DNA from: Terriglobia bacterium
GTDB lineage: Bacteria; Acidobacteriota; Terriglobia; Terriglobales; Acidobacteriaceae
Direction of reading: 5' to 3'
Assembly: GCA_020072845.1 (NCBI GenBank)
Contig: JAIQGF010000007.1
Span: 1-64,000 of the forward strand
Length of the DNA: 64,000 nt
Made by a program: the position numbers and the translations under genes. Positions within the stretch are counted from its first letter, which is position 1. The number at the start of each line of letters is the position of its first letter. Below, piece by piece: positions 9,799-42,130 of this stretch. Under the pieces are notes generated by a model. It was not told where the DNA came from, did not search any database, and saw only the letters and a list, made by a program, of their open reading frames with translations.

Positions 9799-11580
9799 TT
9801 GTCATCCGGCAAGCGATTTCCGCGACAGCAGCCGACCTCCGCAAAACGCAGCCCGCAGCGGTGGTGGAATCACGCCTGGTTGCAAGCCGCGGCGCTGATC
9901 GCCATGGCGGTGGTCGTGTACCTGCCCGCTGTGCGCGGCGGCTTCATCTGGGACGACCGCATGTACCTGACGCACAGCACGCTGATGCGCCGCCCGCTTT
10001 GGAGGCTATGGATTGCACCCGAGGCCATCGATTACCTGCCGCTGACGTACACGCTGTACTGGCTGCAATGGCGCATCTGGCACGACAGCGCGATGGCGTT
10101 TCACCTGGTGAACGTGCTTCTGCACGGCGGCGCTGCGGTCATGCTGTGGCGCGTGCTGCGCCGGCTGCAAGTGCGCGGCGCATGGATCGCCGCGGCCATT
10201 TTCGCAGTCCATCCCGTGGGCGCCGAGTCGGTGGCATGGATCGCCGAGGAGAAAAACACGCTGTCGCTGCTGCTGGCGGCAAGCGCGCTGTTGCTGTACC
10301 TGAATTCGGAGGCGCGGCCGCGGCGGTATTGGATGGCAGTCGTCACGTTTGCCATGGCGCTGTTCTCCAAGCCGGCAGTCATCATGTTTCCGGTGATCCT
10401 GCTGCTGCTGGCGTGGTGGAAGCGCGGCGCGATCACGCGCACCGAATACCTGCAGACCGCGCCCTTCTTCGCGTTATCGGCGATTTTTGCGCCGGTAACG
10501 ATCTGGTACCAGAGGCGCTCCATCGGCACGGAACACATTCCGCTCGGCGGGATTGGCGAGCGCTTGGCGCAGGTGACGAAAGCGGCATGGTTTTACCTTT
10601 ATAAACTGCTGCTGCCGCGCGATCTCATGTTCTTCTACACGAGTTGGAAACACAGCGGCCTTGACGGATTCACCGTGGCCGGCATAGTGGCATTGATCGC
10701 GGTCGCGGCCTGTCTGTGGCGCATGTGCGCGCCATGGGGACGCGGGCCGCTGGTCGCGCTGGCATGTTTCGCGGCGCTGCTGTTGCCGGTGCTGGGACTG
10801 TTCGACATGGCGTGGATGCAGTTCGCGCCGGTGGCCGACCATTACCAGTATCCGGCGATGATCGCGGCGATCGCGCTGATCGCTTCAATTTTGGAGAATC
10901 CCCACCCTGTCGCTCCAAGACCGGGAGCGACAAGGGTGGGCCACCCAGCGCGCGTGGCGGCGGTTGCGGCGATCATCGTCGCACTCGGCGCGCTCACCTT
11001 CATGCAGGCTCGGCAATATCGGGACGAAGACACGCTGTGGCGCGCGACCCTCGATCGTAATCCGCAGGCGTGGGCGGCATGGGCGGGACTTGGGCTGACG
11101 GCGAGCGAACGCGGCGATACGGCCACGGCCATTGCCGACCTGAAGCGCGCGGCGGAACTGAATCCGCAATATTCGGCAGTGCACAACAATCTTGGCGCGG
11201 AGTACCAGAAAAACGGAGACGTCGAAGCAGCGATCGCGCAATACGACGCGGCGGTGCGGATCAACCCCAGGCTGGCGGCGGCGCAGTACAACCTGGGCGT
11301 GATGCTGCTGCGGCAAAAGCGGGCGTCGCAAGCGGAGCCCCACCTGGCGCGCGCTGTCGAACTGATGCCCAGCAGCTCGCCGGCCGAGGCCAAGCTGGGT
11401 TCGGCATTGCTGGTGCAGGGCAAGCTGGCGACGGCGGAGCAGCACCTGGCGCGCGCGGCGCGGCTGGATCCGGCAAGCTTTGAAGCGCACGCGTACCTGG
11501 CGGAATGTTTGCGGAAACAAGGGAAGTCCGAACAAGCGTTCGAGGAGTACCAAAAAGCCATTGCGTTGCGAGGACAATAG
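9799..11580 (+). CDS. polytopic membrane protein with C-terminal TPR domain (TMTC/PMT-like)
   Basis: 593 aa. The first about 360 residues hold roughly ten hydrophobic segments, and the loop FIWDDRMYLTHSTLMRRPLWRLW resembles the catalytic first loop (acidic DD) of GT-C mannosyltransferases. The C-terminal about 170 residues contain 34-residue TPR units (NPQAWAAWAGLGLTASERGD, NPQYSAVHNNLGAEYQKNGD, NPRLAAAQYNLGVMLLRQ). This architecture matches TMTC-like or O-mannosyl-type membrane proteins. The TTG start at 9799 has GAGGA 6 nt upstream. A REP-like palindrome (10900-10940) is embedded in frame between two membrane segments. Glycosyl transfer is an inference from architecture. Confidence 0.78.
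   Translation: MSSGKRFPRQQPTSAKRSPQRWWNHAWLQAAALIAMAVVVYLPAVRGGFIWDDRMYLTHSTLMRRPLWRLWIAPEAIDYLPLTYTLYWLQWRIWHDSAMAFHLVNVLLHGGAAVMLWRVLRRLQVRGAWIAAAIFAVHPVGAESVAWIAEEKNTLSLLLAASALLLYLNSEARPRRYWMAVVTFAMALFSKPAVIMFPVILLLLAWWKRGAITRTEYLQTAPFFALSAIFAPVTIWYQRRSIGTEHIPLGGIGERLAQVTKAAWFYLYKLLLPRDLMFFYTSWKHSGLDGFTVAGIVALIAVAACLWRMCAPWGRGPLVALACFAALLLPVLGLFDMAWMQFAPVADHYQYPAMIAAIALIASILENPHPVAPRPGATRVGHPARVAAVAAIIVALGALTFMQARQYRDEDTLWRATLDRNPQAWAAWAGLGLTASERGDTATAIADLKRAAELNPQYSAVHNNLGAEYQKNGDVEAAIAQYDAAVRINPRLAAAQYNLGVMLLRQKRASQAEPHLARAVELMPSSSPAEAKLGSALLVQGKLATAEQHLARAARLDPASFEAHAYLAECLRKQGKSEQAFEEYQKAIALRGQ
10900..10940. repeat. REP-like palindrome inside a coding sequence
   Basis: CCCACCCTGTCGCTCC and GGGAGCGACAAGGGTGGG form the stem. 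The same palindrome core brackets the RAYT gene at 41.4 and 42.0 kb. Here it is translated in frame as about 14 Pro/Arg-rich residues (NPHPVAPRPGATRVG) in a loop of the TPR membrane protein. Confidence 0.8.
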
Positions 11581-33241: not shown

Positions 33242-33382
33242 AATTTGTAATCGGGTAATTTGTAATTGGTAATTTGATGAGCGGTTGCCCCACCCTTATC
33301 TCGCCCGGGTTTGGCGAGATGGGGTGGGGATTTTCCATGGAGCACCCACCCATTTACCAATTACAAATTACCAATTACAAAT
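33242..33382. repeat. heptad-array arms flanking a nested REP-like palindrome
   Basis: Left arm 33243-33275: AATTTGT, AATCGGGT, AATTTGT, AATTGGT, AATTTGA. Right arm 33353-33383: ATTTACC, AATTACA, AATTACC, AATTACA, AAT. The arms are reverse complementary and enclose the palindrome 33288-33329. The whole structure lies inside the gcv operon, between gcvH and gcvPA. Confidence 0.85.
33288..33329. repeat. REP-like palindrome
   Basis: CCCCACCCTTATCTCGCC and GGCGAGATGGGGTGGGG, loop CGGGTTT. Same outer CCCCACCCT / GGGTGGGG arms as the copies flanking the RAYT gene; the inner GTCGCTCC is replaced by ATCTCGCC with compensating changes on the other side. Confidence 0.75.
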
Positions 33383-38962: not shown

Positions 38963-39265
38963 TCACGCGTGAACGGGAGCTACCTGGTGAATCCGCCGTA
39001 CACGGATTTGCTTCTCACGCTTGCGGGTCTGGGCGATGTCATAGGAGGCTTGCATCCGCATGAGCGTGTCCATCTTCACTCCGAAAGCTTTCTCAATGCG
39101 GAGCGCCATATCGCCCGAAAGGTCAGCCTTGCCGTTTAGCAGGCTGGACAACGCGGGCCGGGAAACCTGAAGCGCGGTAGCCGCAGCCGTTACCGACAGG
39201 CCCGCAGGCCGGATGATTTCCGTCCGGATGAAATCCCCGGGATGAGGCGGGTTCTTCATGGGCAT
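38963..39265 (-). CDS. higA: HigA-type antitoxin (Xre HTH)
   Basis: 100 aa. NPPHPGDFIRTEIIRPAGLSVTAAATALQVSRPALSSLLNGKADLSGDMALRIEKAFGV is the VapI/HigA helix-turn-helix motif. It neutralises HigB and represses the operon. AAGGAG lies 8 nt before the ATG. It is downstream of the toxin gene, 19 bp away, the normal toxin-first order for higBA. Confidence 0.95.
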   Translation of the reverse strand: MPMKNPPHPGDFIRTEIIRPAGLSVTAAATALQVSRPALSSLLNGKADLSGDMALRIEKAFGVKMDTLMRMQASYDIAQTRKREKQIRVRRIHQVAPVHA

Positions 39266-39284
39266 GAGGCTTACTCCTTCTATC

Positions 39285-39575
39285 CTAGTGGTAGTCTTCC
39301 AGGTTTAAGTCGCAGATTTCGTACTCTGCGATGTCGATACGGAACGTCAGCCGGCGGTTACGGGTAACGCTGAGGCTCCATGTGGCCTTGCGGTCGCCGG
39401 TCAATGTGTGCGTCTTCCACGCTGGGAACGAGCGTAATTCCTCGGGGTCCTGCATATCATCGAGGAATGCCAGCATCTTGCGGAGCTTATCCACCGTATC
39501 AGGCGGAACGCCTCTCGCGATGTCCTCCGTGTAGAGCTTTTTCAGCCCCTTATGCACGAAGTTCCTTATTTTCAC
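39285..39575 (-). CDS. higB: HigB-type toxin (RelE-like mRNA interferase)
   Basis: 96 aa. VKIRNFVHKGLKKLYTEDIARGVPPDTVDKLRKMLAFLDDMQDPEELRSFPAWKTHTLTGDRKATWSLSVTRNRRLTFRI is a complete HigB/RelE-fold chain of normal length. It cleaves mRNA at the ribosome. The GTG start was chosen because the usual family start (xIxxFxHKGL) is directly there; an upstream extension reads into the REP-like element at 39632-39716. Confidence 0.93.
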   Translation of the reverse strand: MKIRNFVHKGLKKLYTEDIARGVPPDTVDKLRKMLAFLDDMQDPEELRSFPAWKTHTLTGDRKATWSLSVTRNRRLTFRIDIAEYEICDLNLEDYH

Positions 39576-39631
39576 CTGACAGACTGTAGCCCGTCGCTTA
39601 ACACTTGTCAACACACCATGCCAGCGCGCTT

Positions 39632-39716
39632 GGGGGCTGGCCCGCCCTTTCCCGCAACACCAATCTCGCGGTTGCCCCACCCTTGGCGCTCCCGGGTTTG
39701 GAGCGAGAGGGTGGGG
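39632..39716. repeat. REP-like compound element (outer arm + palindrome)
   Basis: GGGGGCTGGCCCGCCCTTTC (39631-39650) followed by CCCCACCCTTGGCGCTCC...GGAGCGAGAGGGTGGGG (39675-39716). Same order and spacing as the left flank of the RAYT gene (41361-41445). It lies just upstream of higB. Confidence 0.8.
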
Positions 39717-39759
39717 ATTTTGTCACACTCATCTGTGACTAAACCCTATTGACAGCGTT

Positions 39760-41320: not shown

Positions 41321-41360
41321 GGGCTCTCCCGCGGGCCGGGCGCCTGCTGCGTGGAATAAA

Positions 41361-41445
41361 GGGGGCTGGCCCACCCTTTCCGTCAGAAACAAATCCTGAG
41401 GTTGCCCCACCCTTGTCGCTCCCGATTTTGGAGCGACAGGGTGGG
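41361..41445. repeat. left REP-like compound repeat of the RAYT unit
   Basis: Outer arm GGGGGCTGGCCCACCCTTTC (41361-41380) and inner palindrome CCCCACCCTTGTCGCTCC / GGAGCGACAGGGTGGG (41405-41445). The right flank at 42036-42120 is the same pair in inverted orientation. Confidence 0.85.
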
Positions 41446-41500
41446 CATTTTCCGTCCTACATCACAGACACCGACCCTGATCGAGCGTTAGCCTCGTGGC

Positions 41501-42130
41501 ATGCCTTGGGGGCTGAAGCGTTACCAGCAGGCGCGCTGCCTGCACTTCATCACCTTCAGTTGTTACCGGCGCGAGCCGCTGCTGGCGACACCGCAGTCGC
41601 GGGACACCTTCGAAGCGGAACTGGAGCGGGTGCGGCGTTGGTACGGCTTTTACGTGAGCGGCTATGTGGTCATGCCCGAGCACGTGCATCTGCTGGTCAG
41701 CGAGCCGGAGCGGAAGCAGCTTTCGGTGGCGATCCAGATGTTGAAGCAGACGGTGTCGCGCAAGTTGCGCCGGCCCGGTGAGCGTCAGTTCTGGCAAACC
41801 CGCTACTATGACTTTCCCGTTTCCAGCGAGAAGAACCGCGTTGAGAAGCTGCATTACATACATTTCAATCCGGTCAAACGCGCCCTGGTGAAACGGCCCG
41901 ATGACTGGAAGTGGAGCAGTTTTCTTCATATCGCGACTGGGTGCGAGGTGGTAGTGGAAAATCGAGTCGCAGTGGACGGCGCGCAAGCGAGAGCGCATGG
42001 GCAATGCCTTACGGGTGGTGCGCCGTCAGGAACTACCCCACCCTGTCGCTCTAAGCCCAGGAGCGACAAGGGTGGGGCAACCCCAACAGTAGTTGCGGAG
42101 GAAAGGGTGGGCCAGCCCCCTTCCGATTAA
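41501..42130 (+). CDS. REP-associated tyrosine transposase (RAYT, Y1/IS200-like)
   Basis: 209 aa. HUH motif HVHLLV (His61, His63) after GYVVMPE, the helix LSVAIQMLKQTVSRKL, QFWQTRYYDFPV and the conserved block KLHYIHFNPVKRALV (candidate nucleophile Tyr118) are the signatures of TnpA-REP. Such enzymes nick REP hairpins and are thought to spread them. The last about 30 residues are encoded by the right REP-like repeat and are not conserved. The gene is bracketed by inverted REP-like repeats, so it forms a self-contained unit. Confidence 0.92.
   Translation: MPWGLKRYQQARCLHFITFSCYRREPLLATPQSRDTFEAELERVRRWYGFYVSGYVVMPEHVHLLVSEPERKQLSVAIQMLKQTVSRKLRRPGERQFWQTRYYDFPVSSEKNRVEKLHYIHFNPVKRALVKRPDDWKWSSFLHIATGCEVVVENRVAVDGAQARAHGQCLTGGAPSGTTPPCRSKPRSDKGGATPTVVAEERVGQPPSD
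42036..42120. repeat. right REP-like compound repeat of the RAYT unit
   Basis: Inner palindrome CCCCACCCTGTCGCTC / GAGCGACAAGGGTGGGG (42036-42077) and outer arm GAAAGGGTGGGCCAGCCCCC (42101-42120). It is the inverse of 41361-41445 and overlaps the 3' end of the RAYT reading frame. Confidence 0.85.

Follow-up and report, generated by a model that had tools for sequence, protein, structure and literature searches.

A gene for a REP-associated tyrosine transposase (RAYT, HUH/Y1) that is bracketed by inverted palindromes raises the question of whether gene and palindromes form a mobile pair and, if so, where the copies have gone. We addressed this question for a locus within a 64,000-nucleotide stretch of DNA (the window; bases 1 to 64000 of contig 7 in a 4.23-Mb soil Acidobacteriota genome of 27 contigs), which an earlier note had read as a REP/RAYT system. 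The frame at 41501 to 42130 (+) scored 113.7 bits against NCBIfam NF047646 (REP_Tyr_transpos; curated cutoff, 80) and aligned to E. coli TnpAREP 4er8 (E = 1 × 10−11), with matching PEH-H, WQ, and YI--NPVK stretches. This score, together with HUH, WQ, and Y motifs (PEHVH, WQTRYYDFPVSS, and YIHFNP), places the gene among the RAYTs, the identity that the note had proposed. Classification as an IS200 equivalog, and hence IS200/IS605 membership, was rejected, since the frame reached 36.8 bits against a cutoff of 55 for the NCBIfam IS200 equivalog while exceeding that for REP_Tyr_transpos. Named relatives of the RAYT were all from Acidobacteriota (metagenome-assembled genomes and isolates).

The gene lies between inverted compound ends, each consisting of a 23-nt outer arm (GGGGCTGGCCCACCCTTTCC) and a 54-nt bulged palindrome. 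On the left, the outer arm AAGGGGGCTGGCCCACCCTTTCC (41359 to 41381, +) precedes a palindromic unit whose GGTTG foot faces outward (41400 to 41453, +; covariance model R1, E = 2.2 × 10−21); on the right, the unit is inverted (42029 to 42082, −; E = 7.4 × 10−20) and is followed by the second outer arm (42100 to 42122, −). The two outer arms are 100% complementary over 23 nt, and the 84-nt arms flanking the RAYT are 75% complementary, confirming the layout first noticed here. The right unit overlaps the 3′ end of the RAYT frame, such that the conserved domain (approximately residues 1 to 153) is followed by a C-terminal tail read in part from the repeat. In a paralogue on contig 9 (87% identical), the repeat falls in a different reading frame, indicating that the tail of the window RAYT is not conserved. 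The paralogous locus (contig 9, 181121 to 183841) holds several units within 3 kb, including an 81-nt unit upstream and a 54-nt unit downstream with different inner stems. A search for palindromes adjoining this genome's more distant RAYT-like genes found them at one fragment only (contig 2, 219035 to 219154), which lies about 100 nt from a 43-nt palindrome of a related family (219255 to 219297); the two are perhaps another RAYT/repeat pair.

The window contains five palindromes in total (10901 to 10940, 33289 to 33328, 39676 to 39715, 41406 to 41445, and 42037 to 42076). Their shared pattern, CCCACCC-N18-48-GGGTGGG, has 5 occurrences in the window, compared to a mean of 0.01 and a maximum of 1 in 200 first-order Markov samples. 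Three of the units, recovered by the covariance model, are outside the RAYT locus, at sites that the note had listed as lacking a transposase. The unit at 33283 to 33336 (+) is a spacer copy with the stem ATCTCGCC. The spacer unit at 39670 to 39723 (+) has no RAYT but has an outer arm of its own (GGGGCTGGCCCGCCCTTTCC; 39633 to 39652, +), and the unit at 10893 to 10946 (−) lies inside a gene (9886 to 11577, +), where it is read in frame as SILENPHPVAPRPGATRVGHPAR. This host is a 638-amino-acid open frame for a membrane protein with PMT_2 and TPR repeats. Adjacent to the solo compound unit, two small adjoining frames (38963 to 39680, −) resemble by eye a HigB-type toxin and a HigA-type antitoxin, and the long frame of the putative toxin starts inside the compound unit (39633 to 39723).

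Alignment of copies defined a conserved unit of 54 nt, GGTTGCCCCACCCT-T-stem-CGGGTTT-stem-AGGGTGGGGATTTTCC, in which conservation begins sharply at GGTTG and stops sharply at TTTTCC. The foot, the basal stem, and the unpaired T are nearly fixed, and the inner stem varies in a compensatory manner: double-sided changes were counted in 26 cells among 20 copies, compared to 9.0 in shuffled alignments (0 of 500 as high), and slid versions of the test gave 0 to 4 double-sided cells. The GTCGCTCC/GGAGCGAC stem that had been taken to characterize the repeat is therefore present, but as one stem variant and not as its fixed part. A longer form of 78 nt carries 24 extra apical nucleotides. Read from the sequence, the unit consensus contains no stop codon in any of the six frames. 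A conserved tetranucleotide had also been anticipated at the foot of the stem, and one exists; it is GTTG, within a foot that reads GGTTG in 63 of 83 copies and GGGTG in the other 20, rather than the canonical 5′ GT[AG]G of the GTAG superfamily. RAYT subclass 2.6 and class 3 are reported to have REPs that lack GT[AG]G (PMC6006769).

Across the whole genome, the CCCACCC-N18-48-GGGTGGG pattern occurred at 29 places, compared to 1 for a reversed control pattern. A search with the covariance model, built from 20 copies, returned 55 matches at E ≤ 1 × 10−6, one of which was the opposite strand of another; the resulting 54 distinct places are a lower bound, as the best candidates alone were scored. 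Some weaker places fall in a shorter related family of 43 to 48 nt. The repeat is thus not confined to the five sites of the window, and it is overrepresented in spacers, a test that the note had proposed (30 of 60 places outside genes versus 101 of 600 random window positions, or 50% versus 17%; P = 3 × 10−8). With a bulged hairpin, multiple dispersed copies, and a cognate RAYT carrying the repeat inverted at both flanks, the family resembles REPs; given its foot, we file it as REP-like rather than as a GTAG REP. Location also departs from that of a simple extragenic REP: despite the enrichment in spacers, 24 of the 60 places are within genes and in frame. The earlier interpretation is, in sum, partly supported.

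To compare intragenic location across genera, we used the same codon-model gene caller and matched flanking control positions throughout. In addition to the 24 of 60 places in the window's genome, units were intragenic in 7 of 20 places in the same-genus genome G002 and 8 of 20 in G001, so that about 40% of sampled copies in this genus lie in a host reading frame. In other genera, the counts were 1 of 17 and 2 of 30 (pooled, 39 of 100 versus 3 of 47; P = 2.5 × 10−5). Control positions were intragenic at similar rates in all groups (62 to 75%), indicating that the gene caller is not the cause of the contrast. Hosts identified with Pfam or NCBIfam included valS (valine-tRNA ligase; two units), mutL (two units), prmC, rlmN, kdsA (KDO-8-phosphate synthase), ilvB (acetolactate synthase), pyrF (orotidine-phosphate decarboxylase), and parB, as well as genes for a pseudouridine synthase with an S4 domain (RluB), a UbiA-family protein, a heptosyltransferase, an M16 peptidase, a helicase, and a lipase maturation factor. 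Several of these genes are normally essential, and no second copy of comparable score was found in the same genome for ValS, PrmC, MutL, RlmN, KdsA, IlvB, or the pseudouridine synthase. In ValS, translation through the insert would give the stretch ENPHPVSPNPGETRVGQP; in KdsA, the unit separates SVQLP from SGGQ, at a point where the closest homologue of known structure has ten fewer residues.

These data bear on whether the repeats could be ordinary extragenic REPs, with the intragenic places being false gene calls. Half of the places are indeed in spacers, above chance, and nearly all copies elsewhere in Acidobacteriota are in spacers; nevertheless, the frames that hold units belong to named, conserved proteins that match their families on either side of the insert, same-genus orthologues exist without it, and the reading frame is strongly biased, making this explanation very improbable. 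The bias is as follows. Each strand of the unit has one frame free of Cys and Trp, encoding ENPHPVSPNPGETRVGQ on one strand and a 17-residue peptide on the other, and 30 of the 39 intragenic copies use it, compared to an expected one third (P = 3 × 10−8). For sites supported by orthologues, the count is 15 of 19 (P = 6 × 10−5). Selection on the inserted peptide would be the simplest reading; alternatively, the insertion step may prefer a codon phase. The occurrence of units midway in single-copy core genes, and in both orientations, likewise weighs against the units being intrinsic terminators or RNA hairpins retained for a regulatory role. The hairpin is GC rich and is followed by GATTTT in one orientation, as a terminator would be; however, no Rfam family was matched (tRNAs alone were found), and we give a regulatory origin hardly any credence.

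Insertion history was examined at orthologous sites in G001, G002, and a third same-genus genome, G003, among which species divergence blurs exact insertion junctions. The valS units are absent in all three, and in G002 the second valS site is shorter by about 48 nt, a length divisible by three. The kdsA unit is common to the window's genome and G002 only, and the prmC and heptosyltransferase units are common to the window's genome, G001, and G002. Insertions therefore vary among species, and both old and young ones exist. At rluB and at contig 11, position 198706, the site holds the 54-nt form in the window's genome and the 78-nt form in a same-genus genome. G003 yielded no unit at E ≤ 1 × 10−6, no RAYT match at E ≤ 1 × 10−15, and no unit at 18 compared orthologous sites, some of which hold other sequence; the genome without the RAYT thus has no units. 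G001, with 68 units, has matches to the window RAYT that are 60 to 67% identical or are fragments, one with stops. The gene may have been lost from G001 or may be missing from its assembly.

Other kinds of repeat were observed at some of these sites. In G001, the valS region carries in-frame stretches resembling tandem repeats (GTCGACG and GTCAGGA units) at the two loops that hold palindromes in the window's genome, indicating that repeats of several types can be accommodated in these loops. At the ctaB/UbiA site of G001, a shorter palindrome, GGGTGGCCCACCCTTTCGCCCGGTTTTGGCGAAGGGTGGG, seems to have inserted into a portion of a 54-nt unit close to the gene start, giving a nested insertion. At one mutL site in G001 and G002, a palindrome of a different family (CCCACATCTGCC...GGCAGAT) occupies the position that holds the 78-nt unit in the window's genome; a relative of this palindrome occurs in the latter genome at contig 9, position 150482.

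If the units are mobile, is the RAYT responsible? About 35 related acidobacterial RAYT loci have inverted palindromes with a GGKTG (GG[GT]TG) foot facing outward and varying stems, and several retain the outer arm GGGGCTGGCCC. RAYTs whose residue equivalent to E. coli A102 is Pro pair with a GGTTG foot, and those with Asn there pair with GGGTG. The Pro types form one supported clade on the tree, so this pairing represents a single co-change; we therefore rejected counting it as many independent cases for statistical proof. Spread by another enzyme, or recombination or gene conversion among copies, with the RAYT being just another landing site, would account for the 68 units of G001 in the absence of a clearly intact RAYT of this clade. 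It would also fit the weak association of RAYT relatives and units across the family (P of about 0.04, lost at some cutoffs), and the 54- and 78-nt forms at the same site are as conversion or deletion could give. In contrast, many RAYT loci retain their cognate inverted flanks, the type of foot tracks the RAYT clade, and the valS units are at new sites that share no homology with other copies. We therefore regard RAYT-independent spread as improbable, although less so than false gene calls or regulatory hairpins. We infer from the linkage, the matching of feet, and the unit-free G003 genome that the RAYT moves the units.

We consider a REPtron-like system, in which the RAYT spreads 54- and 78-nt units that are tolerated in genes when in frame, to be the probable explanation. 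By analogy with TnpAREP (PMC6006769), the RAYT would be a single-strand HUH nuclease. It would most likely recognize the GGTTG (GTTG) foot and the basal stem CCCCACCCT/AGGGTGGGG of the 54-nt bulged hairpin when DNA is single stranded and, on the same analogy, would cleave beside the hairpin, allowing copies to spread. Each unit would enter as a self-contained cassette of 18 or 26 codons; because it is free of stops in all six frames, landing in a gene need not kill the host gene. Copies would then persist in tolerant loops, read as Pro/Gly-rich peptide lacking Cys and Trp.

The locus shares with REP/RAYT systems (REPtrons, including E. coli TnpAREP) a RAYT, inverted bulged flanking hairpins, dispersed copies, and a conserved 5′ foot (PMC6006769, PMC3733652). 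It differs in that the foot is GTTG (or of GGTG/GTGG type) rather than GT[AG]G, in its compound outer arm, and in the intragenic share of copies in this genus. It also differs at residues E100, H101, and R104, which in E. coli TnpAREP are involved in reading the guide (PMC6006769) and which are D, F, and S here by alignment to 4er8. The TIRtrons/TIRYTs of Acidobacteria likewise have tyrosine transposases with long inverted repeats, some of them repeated in the genome (Koribacter versatilis ORF1552) (Di Nocera et al. 2013, PMC3733652). However, as judged by the reported motif rather than by the sequences in its figures, their GGGGWSAS does not fit GGGGCTGG, and the available part of that report describes no intragenic copies for Acidobacteria. 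Intragenic REPs as such are already known: RAYT-type repeats have been described in frame in genes of several genera, including Opitutus terrae, among them repair, tRNA, and RNA modification genes (PMC3733652), and REPs also lie inside tnpAREP of subclass 2.4 (PMC6006769). The present case is distinguished by another sequence family with a noncanonical foot, compound ends, an in-frame apical module, unit-free orthologous sites, frame bias, and a genus-specific move into genes that contrasts with sister genera. A literature drawn mostly from outside subscription journals yielded no description of this repeat family, nor of REPs inside genes in Acidobacteria.

In occupying conserved protein genes in frame, the units are like the Rickettsia palindromic elements (RPEs), which are tolerated in the same way (PMC2229807). 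The likeness is one of behavior, and we claim no sequence relation: RPEs are 105 to 146 bp and Rickettsia specific, so units of 54 or 78 nt in Acidobacteriota do not belong to them (PMC2229807). The review of RPEs names no mobilizer for them (PMC2229807), whereas here an RPE-like repeat is accompanied by a cognate transposase as candidate mobilizer, by species of one genus that do or do not carry each insertion, and by sister genera in which the repeats are kept out of genes. Two questions thereby become testable, namely whether a RAYT can insert a cassette into coding sequence and what determines the choice of spacer or gene. In addition, the units are natural in-frame linkers marking insertion-tolerant loops of enzymes that include ValS, MutL, and KdsA. 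Within the Pro-type clade, RAYTs of the window's genus have S where others have W (DFPVSS versus DFPVWS). On a bolder reading, which we offer tentatively and hold to be possible rather than probable, a RAYT/REP pair shifted from spacers into single-copy core genes as in-frame linkers, making these Rickettsia-type coding palindromes with an identified mobilizer, and the DFPVSS change may have altered target choice. Our verdict on the locus is that of a RAYT with REP-like repeats and a noncanonical foot, behaving like the palindromic elements of Rickettsia.
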